64,000 nt of DNA from Rhizobium sp. BK376. GTDB taxonomy: Bacteria; Pseudomonadota; Alphaproteobacteria; Rhizobiales; Rhizobiaceae. Under the pieces are notes generated by a model, which had not been told where the DNA came from, searched no databases, and saw only the letters and a list, made by a program, of their open reading frames with translations. The stretch covers positions 371,045 to 435,044 of the forward strand of contig NZ_SLZG01000003.1 of the NCBI RefSeq assembly GCF_004341625.1. Direction: 5' to 3'. Of the stretch, positions 5,867 through 61,036 are shown in pieces. The position numbers and the translations under genes are program-made. Positions within the stretch are counted from its first letter, which is position 1; every line of letters begins with the position of its first letter.

Positions 5867-7303
5867 TCACTGAACCGGATCGACCTGAGGAAGGTCGTAC
5901 TTTCCGGAAAGCACTTCCTCCTTCGGCTGGTAGAGGCGCAAGATCATGTAGAACGGCCCTGTTGGTGCGGGCAGCCAGTTGGCGGCGAACGCGCCATCCG
6001 GTTCGGTCGATTGCAAAGGCACATCGAAGGAACCGTCGGCGTTCACCTTGAGGCCCTTGGTATCGGTGCCGAGCTTGTATCGCCGGATGGGATTGTCGAC
6101 GAGCATCTTGTCGGCGGCGTTGTAGACCGTCAGCGACCAGAAGGCGTTGACGGGCGGCGCTTTGGCGAAATGGATAACGTACTTCTTGCTGCCTTCGAGT
6201 TGTTCGCCCTTGGAATCCGTCGAGCGCAATGGATACATCGCCTCCTTCTCGCCCTGACCACCGAGATAGGGGCCGGCAACGAGAGCACGCAGAGGATAGG
6301 TATAACCGAAATCATCGAGGCCGCGGACCCAGCTCCATCCGTTGCGTTCCGTGCCAGAACTGGATAGCGCGGAAACGGCCACTTTCGGCCCATCCTTCAG
6401 AGCGCGGATCAGCGCATCACGCTGTTGCTGGCTAAGCTTTGAATCGTCGAAGCCATCCTTGGTGAGACCGAAGCGGGCGAACTGGCCGAACAGGGCGGCG
6501 TCTTGCGGGGGCACCGCGTTGGACTTCAGTGCAAAGGCCAGTTGCTTGTAGAAGCCGAGAGGATCGTCACCGACATCAGGCATGTCCGGCAACTTGGCAG
6601 CAGCGGCGACATAGCTGGAATTCTTCCATTCCTTCAGCGGTCGGAGCGTGAACTGCTCTTGCAGCTTGACCAGGGGCTTCATGTCCTCGCCCTGATTGAC
6701 GCGCAGGCGACCCCAGAGCCAGACCTTGTCAGTTCCGACATCAAGCCGCTTCACGCCTTTCGGCAATTCGCCCTTCCAGCCTGGTGGCACCAGCGCATAG
6801 TTACCTTCCTTGGTGCCGGTCGCCCTGCGTCCGATATAGTGCTCGAGGTTCTGCCACATGTCGAAGACGTCGACGACGTAGTAGCGGTCGTTGGTATCGG
6901 GCACGTGCAGAATAAACGGTTCCTTGCCGAGATCGACGACCGCGCTGAGATAGAGCGTGTCGTTATTGGCGGTCGGCATGTCCTTGGCGTCAGGCGTTGC
7001 GAGCAGCGTTGCCCAACCGATCTGGTTGAGGGGCGCTCTGTAACTGGTGGGTGGTTTCGGCGCCGGGACGTCGCTGTACTCCCGAGCCACCCGCTCCATG
7101 CGAACGAGAGGATAACCCCAGATGTAGGCTGAAAGCCCGGTCTGGTAGGCATCCGCCTCCAGCCCAGCTTCTATGTTCTCCTTGCTCGTCGGAAGATTGA
7201 GAAGCTCGTCTTTGTCGGCAGACTGGGAAAAGGCGTTCGTCGCAATGGTGAGGATCGTGCCTGCCATAAGGGAAGCAAGCGCAAGCGTTCGAATTGCGGA
7301 CAT
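5867..7303 (-). CDS. Exported DUF1254/DUF1214 protein, first gene of operon
   Basis: 478 residues from the ATG at 7303 (MSAIRTLALASLM...), which gives a clean Sec signal peptide ending NAFSQ; a longer reading to 7351 adds 16 residues that spoil the signal. DUF1254 motifs are YIWGYPLVRMERV near the start and ANNDTLYLSAVVDLGKEPF; DUF1214 motifs are FWSLTVYNAADKMLVDNP and NWLPAPTGPFYMILRLY near the end. The stop lies 14 bases before the next gene's ATG, so the pair is co-transcribed. It resembles the protein at 54836 more than its own operon neighbour (shared GYPLV, NADTLY/NNDTLY and NWLPAP blocks). Function unknown. The 285 bases upstream hold no gene I can support. Confidence 0.85.
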   Translation of the reverse strand: MSAIRTLALASLMAGTILTIATNAFSQSADKDELLNLPTSKENIEAGLEADAYQTGLSAYIWGYPLVRMERVAREYSDVPAPKPPTSYRAPLNQIGWATLLATPDAKDMPTANNDTLYLSAVVDLGKEPFILHVPDTNDRYYVVDVFDMWQNLEHYIGRRATGTKEGNYALVPPGWKGELPKGVKRLDVGTDKVWLWGRLRVNQGEDMKPLVKLQEQFTLRPLKEWKNSSYVAAAAKLPDMPDVGDDPLGFYKQLAFALKSNAVPPQDAALFGQFARFGLTKDGFDDSKLSQQQRDALIRALKDGPKVAVSALSSSGTERNGWSWVRGLDDFGYTYPLRALVAGPYLGGQGEKEAMYPLRSTDSKGEQLEGSKKYVIHFAKAPPVNAFWSLTVYNAADKMLVDNPIRRYKLGTDTKGLKVNADGSFDVPLQSTEPDGAFAANWLPAPTGPFYMILRLYQPKEEVLSGKYDLPQVDPVQ

Positions 7304-7589
7304 TGGAAACCTCTTGCAGATCGGTGAACAGGCGACCTGTCGAGATGACACGCATCAATTCGCGCGCGGAAGTACGTTACGGTAAATCAAAGCGTAAACT
7401 GGGCTGGGAGAAAGCAGCGCTGCTAGTCCGCTTTGGGCCGAAAGGCGACCGCAGGCACAGCTCGGGCGCAACGTTCCAGCGCGGGAACCAGTTGCCCGGT
7501 CCGTCAATGTCACTGCCGCGCATGGCGAATCAAAAATTGCTTGATTAGCTGTCGGTGTGCATGCGTCTGCGTACGCTACGACCACTCTT

Positions 7590-7856
7590 TCAATCGCGAG
7601 GTAGCTTACCCAGAAACAGCCTGTTGCCTATTCGGTTTCCACATCGATTGCACTTTAGGCGCGGACAGACTTCAGCAAGCGCGATGCCTTTGCCACATCG
7701 ACGGGCGACGTCCCATCGATCGATCGCTACTTGGTTTCCACAATGAACACAACGAGCGAATAGGACATACCATTCCGGAAGGCTGGCCAGAGTTGCCATG
7801 TCAAACTCCGGATCGCCATCATACGGCGTTAGATTGATCCCGCGCCCGTGCTTCAT
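7590..7856 (-). CDS. Small protein with two CxxC pairs (zinc-finger-like)
   Basis: 88 residues. Two cysteine pairs, CVHC and CNRC, about 34 residues apart, would allow zinc binding. No family recognised. The start at 7856 overlaps the end of the upstream small gene by 38 bases and has no strong ribosome site; an internal ATG at 7799 (MATLASLPEWYVLF) is an alternative. It appears to be the third gene of a leftward cassette behind a LexA-type promoter. Confidence 0.5.
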   Translation of the reverse strand: MKHGRGINLTPYDGDPEFDMATLASLPEWYVLFARCVHCGNQVAIDRWDVARRCGKGIALAEVCPRLKCNRCGNRIGNRLFLGKLPRD

Positions 7857-8064
7857 TTTTGTCCGGGCTCGGTTGCCATCCTCGGGTGAAGCCGGGGCTC
7901 ATCGTGTTCGTCGCGATGGCCAGCTGCATACGGAGATGATGGACGTCGGCCAGCAGCGTTGCGACGGCCGCTTTTGCATCCTCGTCGTGATAGGCCAGAA
8001 CAGCCTCGATCTCCCACTTGAGATCATGCTCAGTGGTCGCGATATCGTGCTTTTCCGGTAACAT
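7819..8064 (-). CDS. Small hypothetical protein in LexA-box cassette
   Basis: 81 residues, MLPEKHDIATTEHDLKWEIE and onward, acidic and predicted helical, ending in a basic tail. The ATG at 8064 shares a base with the stop of the upstream 54-residue frame (TGATG), which argues for translational coupling and decides the start over a longer frame to 8136. No domain recognised. Confidence 0.55.
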   Translation of the reverse strand: MLPEKHDIATTEHDLKWEIEAVLAYHDEDAKAAVATLLADVHHLRMQLAIATNTMSPGFTRGWQPSPDKNEARARDQSNAV

Positions 8065-8228
8065 CAGTGTAGATCCAATGAAAGTTGCACAGGGCGCGGC
8101 AGCAATGGACCGCGAAGCTCGATGCGACTTTGCCATTCGGCGCGTCGCTCAATGTCACGTTGACGTGCGGCCTGCGACGCTGCAATGAACGTCATCGCAT
8201 TTTCGATAACCTTTTCTGTTTTCGTCAT
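8064..8228 (-). CDS. Tiny protein (54 aa), first gene of LexA-box cassette
   Basis: A 54-residue frame from the ATG at 8228, beginning MTKTEKVIENAMTFIAASQA and ending VQLSLDLH, mostly charged helix with a hydrophobic tail. Its stop overlaps the next start (TGATG at 8062-8066). It lies 14 bases downstream of a GAAC-N7-GAAC box and a plausible -35/-10 pair, so it would be the promoter-proximal product of an SOS-controlled cassette. Family unknown. Confidence 0.5.
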   Translation of the reverse strand: MTKTEKVIENAMTFIAASQAARQRDIERRAEWQSRIELRGPLLPRPVQLSLDLH

Positions 8229-8242
8229 CGGCGCCCCCGTAC

Positions 8243-8280
8243 GTTCACTTTATGTTCTCATTGAGAGACCTAAGAGTCAA
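8243..8280 (-). promoter_or_regulatory. Candidate LexA-controlled (SOS) promoter
   Basis: Reading leftward: -35 TTGACT (8275-8280), 17-base spacer, -10-like GAACAT (8252-8257), and overlapping the -10 the direct repeat GAAC-N7-GAAC (8243-8257), which is GTTC-N7-GTTC on the plus strand. GTTC-N7-GTTC is the established alphaproteobacterial LexA operator. The first downstream start codon is 14 bases away. About two such 8-base matches are expected by chance per 64 kb on both strands, so the support comes from its position. Confidence 0.55.
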
Positions 8281-8493
8281 GGTATGTGTCCGCTATCAGT
8301 CCTCGTCGTCATCAAAAAGGTGGTTTCTGTGAAAGCATCTGCGCCGCTGAAATGCCTTTTTCCTATAGATACTCCGCCCGGAGCGCGGGCAACTAGGTGC
8401 GCTATGCACTCTCAGAAATCGGTACTAATTGTGGTAATTTGGCAAGTAGTTCAATTAAATCCGGTAAATACAATGAGTTAAATGCGGAGTTTT

Positions 8494-8513
8494 ATTCCAT
8501 TCACCCGCTCCAA
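8494..8513 (+). repeat. Right att-type direct repeat
   Basis: Matches 19 of the 20 bases at 395-414 (end of tRNA-Gly) in the same orientation. It carries no other tRNA features, so it is a partial copy marking the right end of the inserted block. Confidence 0.8.
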
Positions 8514-8621
8514 ATTTCAGTACAAGCACATTATATAACGACTGCAGATCAGCCAGCATCTGCCTTTCAGGTTCCCGCCAGAGAGCTATGTCAAGCTCGG
8601 CGGAAAAGGAGATCGCTTCAG

Positions 8622-9176
8622 TTGAGAAAGATAAGTTTAACGAACTTCTTCAGGTTGAAGGCGATTTTTACGCGCGGTGTCCTTGAGATCGCAAGGAAGA
8701 CCAGAATTCCGCGCGGCACAACGATTATGTGGAAAGACGGCAGCGTAAAGCTTGGACAACGGGTCAAATTTCGCCGCGGCGTGGTTGTCGATGCCCAGAA
8801 GGACAGCATCGAGATAGGAAACAATGTCTCGCTGAACGACTATGTCATCCTGCTAGGACGCGGCGGGATCAAGATCGGCAATGATGTGCGGATTGCCGGA
8901 CATGTGATGGTCGTTTCCTTCGATCACAATTTCGATGACGTCACCCAGCCGATCCGGATGCAGGGTGTGACCAAGAAGCCGATCGTCATCGAAGACGATG
9001 TATGGATCGGCGGCGGCGCAAAGATACTCGGCGGCTCGCATATCGGCAAAGGCTGTGTCATCGGGGCCAATGCCGTCGTCAAGGGAGATACGAAGCCCTA
9101 CGGCGTCTACGTGGGCTCACCCGCCAGATTCTTGAAGTGGCGCGGCGACACGGCCAGCAGGAACGCCGCGGAATAG
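8622..9176 (+). CDS. Hexapeptide-repeat acyltransferase (left-handed beta helix)
   Basis: 184 residues from a TTG at 8622, chosen because AAGGAG lies about 10 bases upstream and because earlier in-frame starts would run across the island junction. Repeated [I/V]-G-x-x-x-x motifs (IEIGNNVSLNDY, IKIGNDVRIAGH, WIGGGAKILGG, HIGKGCVIGANAVV) build the beta helix, and the C-terminus GVYVGSPARFLKW is the usual CoA-dependent acetyltransferase tail; HNFDDVTQPI carries the expected catalytic His region. It probably acetylates a sugar in surface polysaccharide. First chromosomal gene to the right of the island. Confidence 0.8.
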   Translation: MRKISLTNFFRLKAIFTRGVLEIARKTRIPRGTTIMWKDGSVKLGQRVKFRRGVVVDAQKDSIEIGNNVSLNDYVILLGRGGIKIGNDVRIAGHVMVVSFDHNFDDVTQPIRMQGVTKKPIVIEDDVWIGGGAKILGGSHIGKGCVIGANAVVKGDTKPYGVYVGSPARFLKWRGDTASRNAAE

Positions 9177-9212
9177 CCGTCACCGTCGAAGCCCGACGGA
9201 ATCATAATTCCC

Positions 9213-9249
9213 CAAAAGAAAACGGGCGGAACACGTGGTGCTCCGCCCG
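9213..9249 (-). terminator. Rho-independent terminator, end of chemoreceptor gene
   Basis: On the minus strand an 8-base stem (CGGGCGGA with TCCGCCCG, 9223-9230 and 9242-9249) with an 11-base loop is followed by a T-rich run (9213-9222). It lies 33 bases beyond the chemoreceptor stop. On the plus strand no T-run follows the stem. Confidence 0.75.
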
Positions 9250-9281
9250 CTTGCCGTGAGGCCTGTATTGCAGGCCCTATC

Positions 9282-11297
9282 TCAGAATTCCGTCCAGTCC
9301 GCATCCTTCGCCGGAGCGGCGGCGACAGCTGCGTTGCCGCCTCCGAAAGCACTCATCAGCTTCTGTCCAAGTGCACGGGCCGGCGAGGCGGTGGGGCGCG
9401 ATTTGCCTTCTTCGGCGGCGCGAACAGGGGCAATAGCCGGGCGCCGGGCGGCCGGCCGCGGTGCGTGACCTGCGGAGGTCTGTGTTGGCGATGCACGGAA
9501 GGTCTGGCCGCCATCCGTGCCGGTCAGGCGGAACTGGGCGAGCAGCGAGGTCAGGGCCGCAGCTTCCGAGGCAAGGCTGTGGCTCGCCGCCGTGCTTTCC
9601 TCGACCATCGCGGCATTCTGCTGCGTGCCGTGGTCCATCGTGTTGACGGCCGTGTTGATCTCCTGCAGGCCGGCCGACTGCTCGCGCGAGGCTTCTGCGA
9701 TCGCATGGACGTGCTGGTTGATTTCCTGCACTTCCGCCACGATCGTGTCGAGCGCCTTGCCGGTTTCGCCGACCAGGTTGACGCCGGTCTGGACATGGCC
9801 GCCCGAAGTGGTGATCAGCGACTTGATCTCCTTGGCAGCATTGGCCGAGCGCTGTGCAAGCTCGCGCACTTCCTGTGCGACGACAGCAAAGCCCTTGCCG
9901 GCCTCGCCTGCGCGGGCAGCTTCGACGCCGGCATTCAGCGCCAGAAGGTTGGTCTGGAAGGCGATATCGTCGATGACGCCGATGATATTGCCGATCTCGA
10001 CGGAGGACTGCTCGATCTGCTGCATGGCGCGAACCGCATTGCGGACGATCTCGCCGGATTTTTCAGCGCCGGCCCGGGTGCGGGCAACGAGCTGGCTTGC
10101 TTCCTCGGCACGCTTTGCGGCGTCCTTGACCGTCGTCGTGATCTGTTCGAGCGCCGCTGCGGTTTCCTCGACGGAGGCTGCCTGCTGTTCGGTGCGCTTC
10201 GAAAGCTCGTCTGCGGAACCGCGGATCTCGTTTGCGCCGGCGTTGATGGCGCGGGCATTCGAGCCGACCGTCTGCAGGGTCTCGTTCAGCTTGTCGACGG
10301 AATTGTTGAAATCCTGGCGAAGGGCATCGAGATGTTCGACGAACTGCGTGTCGATGCGCGTGACGAGGTCGCCGTCGGCGAGCCGCTTCAGGCCATCGCC
10401 CAGCGCCTCCACGGCCCTTTGCAGCGAGGCGGCTTCAGAAATCCGCTGTGCCTCGCGCTGCGTACGTTCGCTTTCCGTGAGGCTGCGATCGGCGTCTGCC
10501 TGGGCTTCCAGACGGGCGCGCTCGATGGCGTTGTCCCGGAAGACGGAGACGGCAGATGCCATCTGGCCGATTTCGTCGCCGCGGTCGCGGCCGTCGATCT
10601 CGTCCCTGGTATCGCCTTCAGCCAGCGATACCATGCGGCGATGCAGGCGCGTCAGCGGCGAAGCGATCCCGGCCTGAGCGACATAGACGCCGAGCGCCAT
10701 CGCGGCGAGCGTCAGCGTGCCGAGGATGCCGAGGCTCCAGTCGATCGCCATATTGACGCGGGCAGAGACGGCGTCGGCACCCTTGTTCATGCGGTCGGTC
10801 AGGGCGTTGTTGTTGGTCTGCATCTTCGGGATGAGAATGTTCATCTTGTCGTAGAGCGCCGTCATCGAGGCAGTCGCTGCCTTGGTGTCGCCGGCCTTGC
10901 GCTGGTCGGCAACCTTGGCTGCCAGATCGTTCAGCTCGTCCATCCCGGTCAGGATTTCATCCATCTGGGCCTTCTGAGCCGGCACCAGCGCTTCCGCCTG
11001 CGACAGACGGTTCTTGGCTTCGTCGAAACGGCTCTTCGAGGCGATAGTCGCCTTGTATGCGTCGCTGCTCGGGTCGAAGGCGAGCAGCAGGCTCGTCTGC
11101 AACACCGATGTCAGCACCGACGTGCTCGACCGTGTTCCAAGCGTTGCGGCAACCGCCTCGCGATCGAGGAAGGTGCTGTAGGTCTGGTCCGCCCTGCGGA
11201 ACTCGCTGACGACGTAAAGCAGGCCGATGAAGGATATCGCGCCCAGCAGAACGATCACGGAAAGAATTTTGGTCTTGATCTTAAGACTTTTGAACAT
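9282..11297 (-). CDS. Methyl-accepting chemotaxis protein
   Basis: 671 residues from the ATG at 11297. Order: short cytoplasmic lead, TM1 (about 10-30, ILSVIVLLGAISFIGLLYVV), a ~155-residue helical periplasmic sensor, TM2 (about 190-210), a HAMP domain with a second HAMP-like stretch (LADGDLVTRI), then the signalling hairpin with the conserved tip IDDIAFQTNLLALNAGVEAA. The C-terminus ends D-W-T-E-F, the x-W-x-x-F tether for CheR/CheB, so this is a full-length receptor that can be adapted. Ligand unknown. The protein will sit in the inner-membrane receptor array. A terminator follows. Confidence 0.95.
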   Translation of the reverse strand: MFKSLKIKTKILSVIVLLGAISFIGLLYVVSEFRRADQTYSTFLDREAVAATLGTRSSTSVLTSVLQTSLLLAFDPSSDAYKATIASKSRFDEAKNRLSQAEALVPAQKAQMDEILTGMDELNDLAAKVADQRKAGDTKAATASMTALYDKMNILIPKMQTNNNALTDRMNKGADAVSARVNMAIDWSLGILGTLTLAAMALGVYVAQAGIASPLTRLHRRMVSLAEGDTRDEIDGRDRGDEIGQMASAVSVFRDNAIERARLEAQADADRSLTESERTQREAQRISEAASLQRAVEALGDGLKRLADGDLVTRIDTQFVEHLDALRQDFNNSVDKLNETLQTVGSNARAINAGANEIRGSADELSKRTEQQAASVEETAAALEQITTTVKDAAKRAEEASQLVARTRAGAEKSGEIVRNAVRAMQQIEQSSVEIGNIIGVIDDIAFQTNLLALNAGVEAARAGEAGKGFAVVAQEVRELAQRSANAAKEIKSLITTSGGHVQTGVNLVGETGKALDTIVAEVQEINQHVHAIAEASREQSAGLQEINTAVNTMDHGTQQNAAMVEESTAASHSLASEAAALTSLLAQFRLTGTDGGQTFRASPTQTSAGHAPRPAARRPAIAPVRAAEEGKSRPTASPARALGQKLMSAFGGGNAAVAAAPAKDADWTEF

Positions 11298-11712
11298 GAT
11301 TTGCCCATCTGGGTGTAATCGCGCCACACGACGGAGCGCGCGGACATCAACCCGAAGGCAACGATGTGTAACGCGCGGAACCTGATGCACGCAGGTGAAA
11401 CCGAAATATTGGATATCCTTGCAAACAAGGCGCAAACGACTTGCGTCATGCGATCGGTCTTGGGGCCGATGTCGTTTCGGTACAAATAGAGTCGATATTG
11501 ATTAATTGAGCCCTAAGAATCCGCAGCAATAAATCCTGATAGTGATGATGTTCCCGATTTTTTGGCAGTTGGGTTGTGGATGCCGTCAGGGTGAGCGGCG
11601 GCTCTGCTGCGTGGCAGACGTTGGAACGCCATTATTTCCTGCCAGAACTCCGTAGCTAAACCACCGGGTTTCATATTTCGATGCATCCCTGAATACGTTG
11701 GTGTAATCATGG
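11298..11712. other. Intergenic between divergent genes
   Basis: 415 bases separating the leftward chemoreceptor from the rightward phosphatase-like gene. No gene could be supported. A near-match to a CtrA box (TTAA-N7-CTAA, 11502-11516) is present with one deviation from TTAA-N7-TTAA; I would not rely on it. Confidence 0.4.
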
Positions 11713-56780: not shown

Positions 56781-57497
56781 TCATAAATCCAGCAACGAAT
56801 CCCCGGGCGCGATGTGCGGCACCCGTTGCGAAGTCGAGCCGACGAAGGTGGTGGTTTCGGCAAGCGGCGCCCGGCCCGTGCGGATGTAGGGTTCCTTGAC
56901 GTCCTCGTAGCCGATCGACATGCCGCAGAAGAGCATGAGCCCTTCGGGCGGCGACAGGATCTCGGCAACGGTCTTGCGATAGACCGACCAGGCCATCTGG
57001 GTGCAGCTGTGCAACCCTTCGCCGCGCAGAAGCAGCATGACTGTTTGAAGATACATGCCGAGATCGGCCCATTGGGGGAAACCGAGATCGCGGCTGACGT
57101 AGCAGAACAGGGCGGCGGGCGCGCCAAAGCACTTCCAGTTCGCGGAAGCCGCTCTCTGGCTCGCCTCCCAGTCGCCATCGGCAATGCCGAGCGCGCTGTA
57201 GCGCTCATGACCGAAGGTGGACCGGCGTTCGCGATAGGGAGACTTCAGCGCGGACGGGTACATTTCATATTCCCGCTCGTCCCAGGGGTCCCCTGCGACC
57301 ACGCGTTTGCCGGCGCGCTTCTTCAGCTCGGCAAGCGGCGCGCCCGTCACCACATAGATGTTCCACGGCTGGATATTCGATCCGGACGGAGCCCAGGCAG
57401 CAGCGGAAAACACGCGCTCCAGCACCTCGCTCGGGACCTCCCGATCGACAAACCCACGCACCGCCCGCCGGCTTTTGACAGCCTCATACACGTCCAT
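56781..57497 (-). CDS. Nitroreductase family protein
   Basis: 238 residues from the ATG at 57497. FMN-binding nitroreductase fold: VKSRRAVRGFVDREVPSEVLERVFSAAAWAPSGSNIQPW at the start, GEGLHSCTQMAW in the middle and MSIGYEDVKEP near the end. Reduces nitroaromatics or quinones with NAD(P)H. It precedes the exported cupin gene on the same strand by 43 bases, so the two could be one transcript. Confidence 0.9.
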   Translation of the reverse strand: MDVYEAVKSRRAVRGFVDREVPSEVLERVFSAAAWAPSGSNIQPWNIYVVTGAPLAELKKRAGKRVVAGDPWDEREYEMYPSALKSPYRERRSTFGHERYSALGIADGDWEASQRAASANWKCFGAPAALFCYVSRDLGFPQWADLGMYLQTVMLLLRGEGLHSCTQMAWSVYRKTVAEILSPPEGLMLFCGMSIGYEDVKEPYIRTGRAPLAETTTFVGSTSQRVPHIAPGDSLLDL

Positions 57498-57916
57498 GAC
57501 CACTCGCCTTCTCTGCTATGCCCTTGGCAACCAGAAAGGTACCAAGCCGGGATAGGCGGACCAATTCTGCGGAGTGTTTGGCGAGGCACGACGTTTGATC
57601 AGGCGAAGGCATACGGAAGGTTAGGTGAAGTCATGCCGGCGCCGAGGTTAATTCGGGTTTAGCGGATGGATTCGGGGGTGTGCGTCTGGATGGCGAACCG
57701 GAGAAGACTTGCTGCGGTCTGCTCGTCGAACCGCCGCAAGGCGTCGCCGTCACCCTCTCATGGTTACTTCCGGCCGAAAGTGGCGAAATGATAATGCCGT
57801 TTAATTCCTTTCACCCATAAGACAATCATGTGACTCTAGGTGCAGAAATATTGACTCATTTCACCAATGACGCTCAATTGTTGAGGCCCGACTCAATCTA
57901 AGGTGACGTTGCTGCA
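57498..57916. other. Intergenic region with promoter of the ATPase-nuclease gene
   Basis: 419 bases between divergent genes, changing from high GC to visibly AT-rich after about 57780. No gene supported. Near-palindrome ACTTCCGGCCGAAAGT at 57766-57781. The promoter is listed separately. Confidence 0.5.
57851..57885 (+). promoter_or_regulatory. Candidate promoter and overlapping dyad of ATPase-nuclease gene
   Basis: TTGACT (57851-57856), 17-base spacer, TCAATT (57874-57879). A dyad CTCAA-TTG-TTGAG (57873-57885) overlaps the -10, 31 bases before the ATG. Reasonable for a regulated promoter; read by eye. Confidence 0.45.
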
Positions 57917-59959
57917 ATGAAGGAAATTCAACTACCGAGAGATGCCCTTCAGCGCGTTGATCTAGGAAAGGCATTTGCTGAGTACGATATAATTAGACGG
58001 TCAGCCGAGTTGTTCGTGTCGACGCCCGCAACACTTGCGGCGCTCAACAAATCTAACAATAGTTGTTTTTTTATTGGAAGGCGCGGCAGCGGAAAAACAG
58101 CTATTACAATAGAAATGGAGAGGAAGTCTCCACGCACGGTCACCATACTTCCTCAAATATTTGACCTAATCAAACTTCCGCTCGACGTCGCTGATTTTAA
58201 GGACACAAGGCAACGGCCATTCAAATCCCTCGTCTACGCGGTAGAAAGAGCGCTCCTCGGTGAATTAATAAAGCAATGGATTAAGGATAAAAAATTCGAC
58301 TATGGAAGCGCACCGGATGTCGTCCAAAAAGAGCGTACGCTCATCGAGAATTTGGACTTCGAAGAGCGGTTTCTCAATCTATGCGACGAGATTTTCCAAG
58401 CTTTTCAGTCGGACAACGAAAGACTATGGCTGCGACAAATTAAGAGACGAGACGAACTTTTTAGAGCGATACAAGTTTACGGCGACGATGCTAACTATCA
58501 CTATACCTTTCTTATTGATCGTCTCGATGAGTCGTGGGATGGGTCTGATACGGCGATTATTTGCCTGATGGCACTTATGCACGCGTCAGTGCGTCTCATT
58601 GCTAGCAATCCGTGCATTAAGCCATGTGTGTTTATTCGCGAAAATATTTACGATAGGATAAAAGCCGTCGACAATGAGTTTTCGAGGCTCGAGACGTCAG
58701 TAGTGTTTTTAGAGTGGACGGAAGCAAAGCTCGCTGAGTTCGTTGCACGACGTCTAGTTCACCCCTTCAATACAAAACCTAAGTTAGTCGATGCGTGGGG
58801 CTATTTCTTTCAAGAGGATAAGCCCGGTGACGCTATACAGCGCGTGATGGCATTGAGCCAACATCGACCGCGCGATGTGCTTATGTTGTGTGACTACGCA
58901 ATTAAATCAGCGATAAATGAAAACCATCAAAAAATACAAGATTCTGATCTTAGAGATGCTGAAAAGAGATACAGTACGAGTAGATTGAAGGATTTGGGGG
59001 ATGAGTATGCGGAAAATTATCCGAATATAAGCGTTATTATCGAGTATTTCTTTGGACTTGGCAATGAATTTACCATCTCTGCAATCGAGGATTTTATACA
59101 AAAACTATTACTTGAAGAAAAAATAAACAAGCATTGCAGTTCATGGTTCTACGATTATACCGTGCCGTTCAGATTTGTTGAGCTGTTTTATTCAATCGGA
59201 TTTCTGGGACTGAGGGGAAAGCGAGGAGTCGTTTACAAAGATACCGGCGCGGACGCTAACACCAAGCCGTTGATTGATCATGCGACCACCTTCGTTGTCC
59301 ACCCGACCTATTCTGCGGCCCTGAATCTTCGTCCGATTGTACTGAGTAATCTCTCAGAAGAAACAATACTACAGCATGAAGGAATTCTGGAGGACCTGCC
59401 TGATAGTTTTGGCTTGGACGAGTACAAGGAAACATTGAAAAAGACACTTGAAGATTTAAAGACTCTTCCCGTGGGAAGTGAGGGAGCAACTAGATTTGAA
59501 GATATCGTGGGCACGGTCATTAAGCTATGTTTTTTTAGGTACCTGACTAACGTGCAAGCAAAAGAGCGGACATACGACAGTTCTGTTATTAGGGACTGGA
59601 TTGCATCAAATAGAGCGCCAAGCGGGTTCTGGGAGATGATTAGGCAAAAGCATGGTGCAACGCAGGTAGTGTGGGAATGCAAGAACTACGAAGATCTTCA
59701 CTCTGATGATTTTCATCAGGTCCAGTACTATCTGAATAAAACTTCTGGCTACTTTGGGATAATCGCGTACCGAGGCGATAAGATAAAAGACAGCTATTTT
59801 AAGCACATATCGGCGATCGCAAATAAGAATGACAACGGCATAGTCATGCCGATCACTCAAAAGGATCTAGAGGTATTCCTTCGACAGGCAATTAAAGGCA
59901 CGTCGAAGGAGAACCACATTCAAGACAGATATGACAATATCATCAGAATGATCTCATAA
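57917..59959 (+). CDS. P-loop ATPase fused to PD-(D/E)XK nuclease-like domain (candidate defence protein)
   Basis: 680 residues. The N-terminal ATPase has Walker A G-R-R-G-S-G-K-T (54-61) and a Walker B-like FLIDRLDESWDG with LIDRLDE at 199-205, resembling the Sll1717-type P-loop ATPase group. A helical middle part follows. Residues ~525-625 fit a PD-(D/E)XK fold: Glu528 (RFEDIVG), Asp560 (RDWIASN) and Glu587-Cys-Lys589 (VVWECKN), then the alpha-helix DFHQVQYYLN. This pairing is typical of bacterial antiphage proteins, but I know of no described role for this exact gene. It is AT-rich, with codon use unlike its neighbours, so recently acquired. It stands alone. Confidence 0.75.
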   Translation: MKEIQLPRDALQRVDLGKAFAEYDIIRRSAELFVSTPATLAALNKSNNSCFFIGRRGSGKTAITIEMERKSPRTVTILPQIFDLIKLPLDVADFKDTRQRPFKSLVYAVERALLGELIKQWIKDKKFDYGSAPDVVQKERTLIENLDFEERFLNLCDEIFQAFQSDNERLWLRQIKRRDELFRAIQVYGDDANYHYTFLIDRLDESWDGSDTAIICLMALMHASVRLIASNPCIKPCVFIRENIYDRIKAVDNEFSRLETSVVFLEWTEAKLAEFVARRLVHPFNTKPKLVDAWGYFFQEDKPGDAIQRVMALSQHRPRDVLMLCDYAIKSAINENHQKIQDSDLRDAEKRYSTSRLKDLGDEYAENYPNISVIIEYFFGLGNEFTISAIEDFIQKLLLEEKINKHCSSWFYDYTVPFRFVELFYSIGFLGLRGKRGVVYKDTGADANTKPLIDHATTFVVHPTYSAALNLRPIVLSNLSEETILQHEGILEDLPDSFGLDEYKETLKKTLEDLKTLPVGSEGATRFEDIVGTVIKLCFFRYLTNVQAKERTYDSSVIRDWIASNRAPSGFWEMIRQKHGATQVVWECKNYEDLHSDDFHQVQYYLNKTSGYFGIIAYRGDKIKDSYFKHISAIANKNDNGIVMPITQKDLEVFLRQAIKGTSKENHIQDRYDNIIRMIS

Positions 59960-60117
59960 AGCAGTTGCGGCACGCAGGTGGGCGGAACCTAACTAGGTTT
60001 GAAGCAGCCGCACGAACCTGTCTTTATAGTGCGACGGTTCAGGTCGGCTAATGGTGAGGTCGCATTAGATCCAAAGCGGCCCTCGATATTCAATTGACGC
60101 CGCTGTTCTGGCGAGCC

Positions 60118-60143
60118 GGATAAGCGATAACAATCACTTATCC
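60118..60143. repeat. 26-base near-perfect palindrome
   Basis: Arms begin GGATAAG and end CTTATCC, with matching GAT/ATC further in; 20 or more of 26 positions pair. No T-run follows it. Lies 158 bases beyond the ATPase-nuclease stop. Confidence 0.6.
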
Positions 60144-60181
60144 TCCTCTACATCCCCACCCCCATCACCCATGCCTACAAT

Positions 60182-60236
60182 GCCCCCGCTTCCGTCGCCG
60201 GAGTGTTTCGCGAGACGTTCGCGGGCAGGCGGGGGC
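60182..60236. repeat. Long composite hairpin
   Basis: GCCCCCGC (60182-60189) pairs with GCGGGGGC (60229-60236), enclosing an inner CGCGA-GACGT-TCGCG hairpin (60210-60224). Stem base pairs are mostly G-C, so it should be very stable in RNA. Confidence 0.6.
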
Positions 60237-60468
60237 CGGCGCTTTCGTTTGATCCGTAACGTGCGGGAAGGGCGGAAGAGGTGAAAGTCGTGGGTAAGTA
60301 TCGGGTTACTGATGTCTGCCCTATCAAGCCTCCCCCGGGCAGCCGTGCCCGGTTCGGTTGAGCCGTGCAAGTGGCAGGATTTCCCGAAAGGAAATCGCGA
60401 ATGAAGCCATGCAGCGAGGCGAGGTGATCACCTGTAGGGGAGGGATGCCCCGAAAGAACGCCGAAGGC

Positions 60469-60522
60469 CACGCGAATGCGGAGCCACAGATTTATACAAA
60501 AATGAGGTTCCGCATTCGTGTG
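60469..60522. repeat. Inverted repeat with 14-base arms
   Basis: CACGCGAATGCGGA (60469-60482) and TCCGCATTCGTGTG (60509-60522) are reverse complements with one mismatch around a 26-base loop. The pattern is typical of dispersed rhizobial intergenic repeats. Confidence 0.6.
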
Positions 60523-60601
60523 GGCTCTCCGATCAATTGGAGCAACGCATGCGGCCGGATTGGCCGCGTGGATGATGGAGCATGTCCGGAAGGGGATGGC
60601 G

Positions 60602-60969
60602 ATGAAAAGCGAAGAGGAACGACGCCGGGAGATGGAGGAGGACAGGCGGCTCTTCATGCCCGGCCTTACCTATGGCGAGTACCGAAGGCTCACAGAGCGC
60701 GAGCAGCACCGCGCCTGTCAGAAGCTCACCAGCTCCCGGCCACCGTTCTCGGCTATTGGAAGAGCTGCAGCCTTTCCCCCTGTCGCCGCGCCAAGCGCTG
60801 CAAGGGGTTCCTGACGGAAGCGCAATATGAAGAGCGCTATCACCGTGCCTGTCCGCCCTGCGTCGGCAAGAGCGTGGAGCGCCATGCGGAAATCGTGAAG
60901 ACGCTCAATGCGCTGGTGGAGCGGGCGAAGGAACTGCAGCGGGCCAGGGAAGAAAAGGGCCGGAAATGA
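60602..60969 (+). pseudogene. Small cysteine-containing hypothetical gene, probably frameshifted
   Basis: Frame one starts with MKSEEERRREMEEDRRLFMP at 60602 (GGAAGGGG upstream) and looks natural to about residue 40 (LTEREQHRACQKL), then turns into Ala/Pro-rich, implausible sequence. One base to the left, a different frame continues with LPATVLGYWKSCSLSPCRRA, RCKGFLTEAQYEERYHRACP and ERHAEIVKTLNALVERAKEL to a stop at 60969. Joining the two through a one-base shift near 60714-60740 gives one coherent ~120-residue protein with four or more Cys. So a 1-base deletion or sequencing error is likely. Function unknown. Confidence 0.55.
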
Positions 60970-61036
60970 AAATCTGCGGTCAGCACCCGGACCGGACCCG
61001 GTACGGCGCAAGCCAGGCTAGCGCTGTGGGGGCGGC

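Follow-up and report, generated by a model that had tools for sequence, protein, structure and literature searches.

What does a solitary AT-rich gene do among the GC-rich genes of a rhizobial contig? The question is raised by an open reading frame (ORF) in a 64,000-nucleotide stretch of Rhizobium sp. BK376 (the window, whose positions are used throughout). An earlier sequence-only reading placed this gene at 57851-59959 and saw in it an ATPase fused to a nuclease; the end of that span stands, but its true ATG lies 66 bases downstream, at 57917. We propose that the gene is probably a horizontally acquired single-gene system directed against invaders, phage or plasmid. The analysis ties this anonymous gene to a family of ATPase-nuclease fusions with a wide, scattered distribution, and it offers a testable idea for tnpX, the passenger gene of a classical transposon found in DH5alpha, DH10B and F plasmids.

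A Sll1717-family ATPase with conserved catalytic residues

The protein matches the NCBIfam model NF047389 (Sll1717 P-loop ATPase) along the entire model (positions 1-454 of 454, residues 16-469) with 259.1 bits against a cut-off of 75, which bears out the earlier guess of a Sll1717-type ATPase. The same model is matched by all 55 sequences of the alignment A2. The Pfam ORC-CDC6-like family PF24389 reaches 25 bits, under its cut-off of 27, with two weaker matches at chance level, and TIGR02928 (orc1-cdc6) gives 13.7 bits, short of its cut-off of 181.3, the fold being nonetheless similar. In a viral fold library, two matches were obtained at E values up to 0.001, both to ATPase proteins of large viruses. 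The C-terminal part of the protein is recognised by the PADLOC candidate PDC-M36A (7.8e-15), along positions 282-429 of the 457 in the profile only; the match does not extend across the whole protein and is confined to the nuclease part. Among the 55 sequences, PDC-M36A is matched by 53 and PDC-M28C, a candidate that resembles the ATPase, by 49.

Residue conservation was counted across 58 aligned sequences, all distinct and of full length (Table 1); loci with stops in the match or with lengths outside 601-799 residues, and identical copies, had been removed. The Walker A motif at residues 54-61 and the Walker B-like LIDRLDE at 199-205, both claimed previously, are present in the translated ORF, as is the complete E528/D560/E587-K589 set proposed for the nuclease, whose members are kept in 55-56 of the 58 homologues. 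Conservation at Walker A, Walker B and E587-x-K589 was partly selected for, because these motifs served as fetching patterns: loci of the genome collection were fetched with patterns covering Walker B and E587-x-K589, and loci of the viral collection with patterns covering Walker A and Walker B. Residues E528, D560 and Q601 were part of no fetching pattern. The RPRD stretch at 317-320 may be a sensor-2 arginine motif.

The predicted structure of the two halves

The full-length AlphaFold model, built on the 55-row alignment, has a predicted local distance difference test score (pLDDT) of 86.5 and a predicted template-modelling score of 0.68, and displays an AAA+ core with a winged-helix region, behind which lies a separate domain at the C-terminus. 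For the ATPase, the nearest solved folds are SSO1545 (2fna, Z 13.1), Cdc6 (1fnn, 12.9), TnsC (7ufi, 12.1), MuB (8xvb, 11.7) and CED-4 (4m9s, 11.6). In the fold list of the full model, residues 507-680 resemble the small subunit of BspD6I (2p14, Z 11.1) and residues 501-676 resemble FokI (2fok, 11.0).

When residues 496-680 were folded alone, the pLDDT rose to 93.1 and the nearest neighbours were Nt.BspD6I (Z 11.6 over 158 residues at 3.5 Å) and FokI (11.2), in agreement with the C-terminal PD-(D/E)XK nuclease claimed beforehand; structure prediction, which had been suggested as a check, returned a nuclease fold. Further neighbours of this domain are EcoT38I (9.7), MspJI (9.6), AspBHI (8.7), HindIII (8.0), Shedu (8.0), Hna (7.0), NucC (6.8) and Avs4 (6.7). 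Its predicted elements run from a helix at 521-538 carrying E528, through strands at 543-551 and 558-565 (D560), to a strand at 583-589 with E587-x-K589 and a helix at 596-603 with Q601, an order that fits the PD-(D/E)XK core. By its predicted fold and its residues, the C-terminal domain qualifies as a member of the PD-(D/E)XK superfamily.

Two groups of relatives and a mobile gene

The relatives were fetched as 69 loci, 55 from the genome collection and 14 from the viral collection; the latter were found by an alignment-based search, whereas a scan of viral contigs with the single protein gave seven stretches, none of them a relative. A tree of 61 proteins, rooted at its midpoint for drawing only, resolves two groups with a split support of 100/100. 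Two loci with stops in the match, L061 and L067, are outside the alignment of 58 sequences; the first was restored for the tree and the second was not.

Group A (14 tree rows) contains the window protein together with proteins of Pseudomonas, Marinobacter, Paraburkholderia, Lampropedia and one viral contig at 59-65% identity and, at 39-45%, those of Acidobacteriota, Actinomycetota, Planctomycetota, an unplaced bacterium and a second viral contig. Four phyla, Pseudomonadota, Acidobacteriota, Actinomycetota and Planctomycetota, thereby come together in one group, with support 100/100. A copy in a Bacteroidetes metagenome-assembled genome (L067) is 44% identical and has stops in the match. Group B (47 tree rows) comprises TnpX of Tn1000 and a protein named HypX; the window protein falls outside it (100/100) and shares 19.7-24.3% identity with its members over aligned columns.

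Full-length relatives elsewhere are rare. Within the genus, a full-length copy was found in one of 148 genomes, the window's own, and eight others hold partial matches only. A sample of the class gave matches in 11 of 385 genomes, one of which, besides the window's own, covers the greater part of the protein (L007: residues 46-625, 26% identity), and a sample of the phylum gave 20 of 398, with one further relative near full length (61%). The class to which the genome of this last relative belongs was sampled as well (9 of 369 genomes match), and the same relative is its only full-length one. Matches also occur in 267 of 72,556 plasmid records, 186 of them over at least 80% of the protein, and in 2 of 50,697 phage records, both of Klebsiella phage.

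The gene had been described as visibly AT-rich between GC-rich neighbours, and its G+C content (GC) is indeed 43.9% against 61.3% in the remaining window. The lowest-GC stretch of gene length in the window starts at 57786, while the lowest such value away from the gene is 53.8%. The relatives follow the same trend: GC is below that of the flanks in 52 of 53 loci, by a mean of 12.2 points (counting each distinct locus whose match is free of stops and has at least 600 residues, and whose flank measures at least 3,000 bases), and the gene is the lowest-GC gene in 41 loci, where 7.2 would be expected, among the 49 of these 53 that have at least three other called genes of at least 250 residues (home-made gene calls). 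In close group-A pairs the DNA similarity stops at or near the ends of the ORF, with the exception of two Pseudomonas copies that have a few hundred further bases in common upstream. AT-richness, sporadic presence and the mobile contexts of the relatives mark the gene as mobile and horizontally acquired.

Neighbourhoods of the closer relatives

The surroundings of the group-A relatives (Table 1) are variable and often mobile, AT-rich settings, and no conserved housekeeping context with normal GC, which had been named as evidence that would refute the earlier reading, was found among them. We regard this pattern as suggestive, and it is not an enrichment test. At the Planctomycetota locus L068, the integrase appears by eye to be split over two frames. 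At L061, a sequence similar to the start of the attC-like element precedes the homologue. Two Actinomycetota loci, L066 and L109, have the homologue or a remnant of it near related HNH genes (in L109, 40 residues at 65%). A putative recombinase beside L058, named by eye, gave no match among solved structures and was not counted.

Table 1. Features of the gene (window positions) and of the neighbourhoods of group-A relatives (positions within each locus)
Feature	Coordinates	Strand	Observation
ORF	57917-59959	+	ATG start, 680 residues; Sll1717-family AAA+ ATPase with predicted C-terminal PD-(D/E)XK nuclease
Residues 7-478	57935..59350	+	AAA+ core, helical parts, winged-helix region; predicted fold nearest SSO1545, Cdc6, TnsC, MuB
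Walker A GRRGSGKT, residues 54-61	58076..58099	+	G54, R55, R56, G57, G59, K60 in 58/58
Walker B LIDRLDE, residues 199-205	58511..58531	+	D201 and D204 in 58/58
RPRD motif, residues 317-320	58865..58876	+	58/58 sequences; candidate sensor-2 arginine motif
PD-(D/E)XK nuclease domain, residues 499-680	59411..59956	+	FokI/BspD6I-like predicted fold; PADLOC PDC-M36A match 507-654
E528, predicted catalytic	59498..59500	+	core helix 521-538; kept in 56/58
D560, predicted metal ligand	59594..59596	+	core strand 558-565; kept in 55/58
E587-C588-K589, (D/E)XK motif	59675..59683	+	core strand 583-589; E/D in 55/58, K in 56/58
Q601, conserved glutamine	59717..59719	+	helix after (D/E)XK strand; 56/58
L112			viral contig with RusA and DUF968
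L113			viral contig with XerD-like tyrosine recombinase (1e-8)
L068, Neorhodopirellula	6739-11335		integron-type integrase (IntI4-like, 1.1e-21); 215-bp direct repeats (three ahead of the gene, one behind it)
L061, Marinobacter changyiensis	8877-11121		attC-like site after homologue; IS110-type transposase (IS621/ISCro4-like); DUF6602 gene
L060			phage-type integrase (9e-11) and AbiGi (5.4e-56)
L058			PDC-S59 (6.7e-31) and Hp2 (5.3e-39)
L066, Actinomycetota			HNH gene matching type IV restriction models
L057			HEPN gene

The same parts in other arrangements and in known systems

Both halves of the protein also occur with other partners. In further proteins, of the same genome and of others, about 280-310 residues stand ahead of the Sll1717 ATPase and bear a weak likeness to nucleoside deoxyribosyltransferases (in four of the five scanned, PF05014 matches below its cut-off), and the C-terminal nuclease is carried by PDC-M36A proteins (four of four scanned), whose N-terminus differs from that of the window protein. 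A shared switch with exchanged effectors is a pattern known among defence ATPases. One such second Sll1717-like ATPase of the same genome lies at L005:25-2310 (G000:C19), its N-terminus weakly like nucleoside deoxyribosyltransferases. With PDC-M28C, the window protein has a resemblance in the ATPase; both PDC-M36A and PDC-M28C are PADLOC candidates only, and no paper on either was found in the open-licence literature.

The FokI and Nt.BspD6I cleavage domains are the nearest solved folds of the nuclease, although a match at the level of sequence is absent; these enzymes have DNA-recognition domains and no ATPase. The Avs/STAND systems likewise join a STAND-like ATPase to a PD-(D/E)XK nuclease (the Avs4 row, Z 6.7). 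They are ordered as an N-terminal effector, a central STAND module and a C-terminal repeat sensor, whereas the nuclease of the window protein is C-terminal and the protein ends there. A related ATPase core is found in DS-41 (DefensePredictor), reported as a validated antiphage system in PMC13092281 and taken here, by name, to be the system of the model NF053860 (DS41_1). The window protein scores far below the cut-off of this model, with its best stretch at residues 193-362 and the nuclease outside it; 53 of the 55 aligned sequences match the model, also below its cut-off. ATPases of the STAND/ORC-Cdc6 kind are described for BREX in PMC12839542, so this type of ATPase is not foreign to defence.

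Each half is known, then, and the fusion of an ATPase to a nuclease is a known defence style. For a layout in which a FokI-type nuclease comes after a Sll1717 ATPase of the Cdc6/STAND-like kind, no named system was found among the best matches of our open-licence literature searches, nor did the word Sll1717 lead to any paper there; within that literature, the earlier statement that no named system has this layout holds.

TnpX of gamma-delta and HypX

Group B includes a gene that follows the transposase and resolvase genes of a Tn3-family transposon in the F plasmid and in DH5alpha. The name tnpX appears in the layout of Tn1000 (gamma-delta) given in PMC6340991, and from this layout and the position of the gene we infer that it is tnpX. 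TnpX is a full-length homologue, with the Sll1717 ATPase, the C-terminal (D/E)xK nuclease and the same conserved residues; it differs from the window protein in being about 24-26% identical to it, in belonging to group B and in being carried on a Tn3-family transposon. At a coverage of at least 80%, tnpX DNA was found in 115 of 5,426 complete E. coli genomes, and 124 of the 129 matching records are at least 99% identical. Among the matches listed, the carriers include DH5alpha, DH10B, TOP10, JM109, JM83, XL1-Blue, F plasmids and some MG1655 stocks. A match to the Tn1000 transposase was present in two of the 69 fetched loci, L074 and the fragment locus L111. No published function for tnpX was found among the best matches of the literature searches.

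HypX is a full-length homologue as well (over residues 16-667), 25-26% identical to the window protein and placed in group B. It is encoded on Enterobacterales plasmids of about 110 kb and also appears in two records of Klebsiella phages; the equal size of the phage records suggests that these elements are phage-plasmids.

We also considered TnpX as the cause of the phage resistance of one DH5alpha strain, and rejected it: DH10B, with an identical tnpX, is sensitive in the same report (PMC5843723). The 'phage-resistant DH5alpha' of that report has a 4.83 Mb genome with five prophages. The three DH5alpha records examined here measure 4.58-4.61 Mb, and in one of them (NZ_CP045741) tnpX is annotated in pieces; given these sizes, the resistant strain may be another one.

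A proposed mechanism of defence by assembly

Taken globally, the evidence leads to a hypothesis in which the two halves of the protein act as a switch and an effector; an antiphage role, which the earlier reading offered as an inference, keeps that standing. Dimers are the active form of FokI cleavage domains, and ATP lets Cdc6, TnsC and MuB form assemblies on DNA. In the most economical working model, ATP-driven assembly would pair the nuclease domains on invading DNA. Mechanistically, the N-terminal two thirds, a predicted Cdc6/STAND-like AAA+ ATPase with a winged-helix region, would most likely stay off until a sign of invasion appears, which may be either DNA of unusual structure or a protein of the phage. 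Binding and hydrolysing ATP, the protein would then form a dimer or a ring, possibly while bound to DNA in the manner of Cdc6, TnsC and MuB. This assembly would bring together the nuclease domains, the predicted FokI/BspD6I-type folds of the C-terminal 180 residues, which would in turn cut the invading DNA or, in a less selective variant, the cell's own DNA, and so stop the infection.

A wider and more doubtful idea is that groups A and B form one unrecognised single-gene immune family, in which a Cdc6/TnsC-like ATPase would assemble on invading DNA, for example at replication or entry intermediates, and recruit a FokI-type nuclease. Mobile elements would carry such genes to exclude competitors, and tnpX would be the laboratory representative. 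Should the family prove defensive, members of it would be present in many cloning strains, and the group of the window gene would be a compact one-gene system spread across phyla.

Several observations weigh against a defensive role. Six of the 14 group-A loci (L059, L062-L065 and L067) are without a recognised sign of mobility or defence, one of them on a 3.2-kb contig. The neighbours scanned were chosen by eye, ten per scan and with no matched control, and four of ten were unmatched in Pfam and five of ten in PADLOC. Beside the window gene itself no recognisable defence gene was found: eight of ten neighbours have ordinary metabolic or regulatory Pfam domains and two have none. No tested function was found for any member of either group, and laboratory E. 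coli strains with tnpX are generally phage-sensitive. DH10B, which carries tnpX, is reported as sensitive to a T4 phage (PMC5843723). This sensitivity argues against the group-B cousin being broadly protective at native expression, and is compatible with a narrow or an anti-plasmid role. The window protein, moreover, falls short of the cut-off of the DS41_1 model, with 54 bits against 370.

The structural assignments have their own counterevidence. Generic AAA+ proteins, such as proteasome ATPases, follow close behind the best matches at Z 11.2 and less, so the Cdc6/STAND placement of the ATPase is not sharp. With Foldseek, the nuclease domain retrieves first (E 5.9e-4, template-modelling score 0.36) a chain that we take to be RPB5, since 1dzf, an RPB5 entry, is among the matches listed, and FokI second (7.0e-4, 0.51). 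A profile of 55 nuclease domains run against the sequences of solved structures finds no FokI- or BspD6I-like chain at E values up to 10, and the nuclease assignment therefore rests on fold and residue conservation. The best match of that profile, an RNase P protein (E 0.004, with four chains up to E 10), was taken as chance. The full profile gave nothing convincing against the same sequences (best E 0.015), mostly short P-loop matches and RNase P chains.

Alternative explanations

The alternative that survives best, which we nevertheless consider unlikely, is an ATP-dependent type IV-like restriction enzyme that reads modified or foreign DNA directly, as MspJI or McrBC do, with no infection-triggered switch. 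The predicted nuclease fold lies near MspJI (Z 9.6), AspBHI (8.7) and FokI, a type IV restriction-like HNH gene adjoins the L066 homologue, and the gene is single, with no methylase among the ten window neighbours scanned. On the other hand, the protein has no recognisable DNA-reader domain besides the winged-helix region, and its ATPase is nearest to Cdc6/STAND, with no McrB among the best 50 fold matches listed.

It is less probable still that the protein serves the element that carries it, as a Cdc6/TnsC/MuB-like DNA-loading ATPase whose nuclease aids replication, resolution, target insertion or persistence, the look of defence arising merely from travel on mobile elements. Such a role would suit the closest folds, which include Cdc6/Orc, TnsC and MuB, the position of tnpX, which adjoins the transposase and resolvase genes of a Tn3-family element both in the F plasmid and in DH5alpha, and the presence of HypX on plasmids of about 110 kb, two of which are also entered as phage records. 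However, the relatives of the window gene are found in unrelated settings (viral contig, integron, integrase island and chromosome), and the DNA similarity between them is largely confined to the ORF. Moreover, the Tn1000 transposase is matched in only 2 of 69 loci, one a fragment, and PDC-M36A proteins bear the same nuclease on another N-terminus.

That the gene is a decayed or inactive island relic without current function is very improbable: it does stand alone among ordinary genes with no promoter above chance, but its frame is open over the full length, all conserved ATPase and nuclease residues are kept, and it is 59-65% identical to full-length relatives.

The window around the gene

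The proposed defence gene has ordinary neighbours, which Pfam identifies as ArsR-type, AHSA1, hydrolase, DUF1254, cupin, nitroreductase, GGDEF and GNAT genes, together with two unmatched ORFs. The window was also considered as a defence island. The PADLOC scan of its 56 ORFs returned 68 families and is not interpretable; among the 25 families listed, each was matched by one ORF, and apart from the match of the gene itself their names point to general helicases and a cyclase.

Independent regulation had been read into the upstream region, as a promoter of its own and an overlapping dyad, and neither holds up. Between 57500 and 60300, four sigma-70-like sites were found, all on the minus strand, where 3.9 are expected by chance. 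The 221-bp intergenic stretch contains four perfect 5-bp dyads against a mean of 1.9 in shuffled sequence, and 51 of 300 shuffles have as many. As neither exceeds chance, both were rejected as a sign of independent regulation.

An RNA partner was sought with Rfam, which gave no match in 57000-61000 at E values up to 0.1. As for an origin as an integron cassette, no attC-like site was found around the gene by home-made scans, which are not a validated finder: the stricter one missed the L061 site at 11050-11121 that the relaxed one caught, and its sole result was a perfect inverted repeat of 64 bp at L068.

The five relatives compared on the nitroreductase/cupin side revealed no clean empty site. 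Their similarity to the window ends between 57629 and 57695, which roughly places the left junction; the right flank was compared in one relative, a different genome from these five. Just to the right of the gene, at 60169-60530, lies a 362-bp stretch that recurs at G000:C4:423353-423714 with 91% identity and, among the matches listed, more weakly (70-71%) in three genomes of the same genus. It contains 29-nucleotide inverted arms at 60465-60526 and is possibly a small repeat element.

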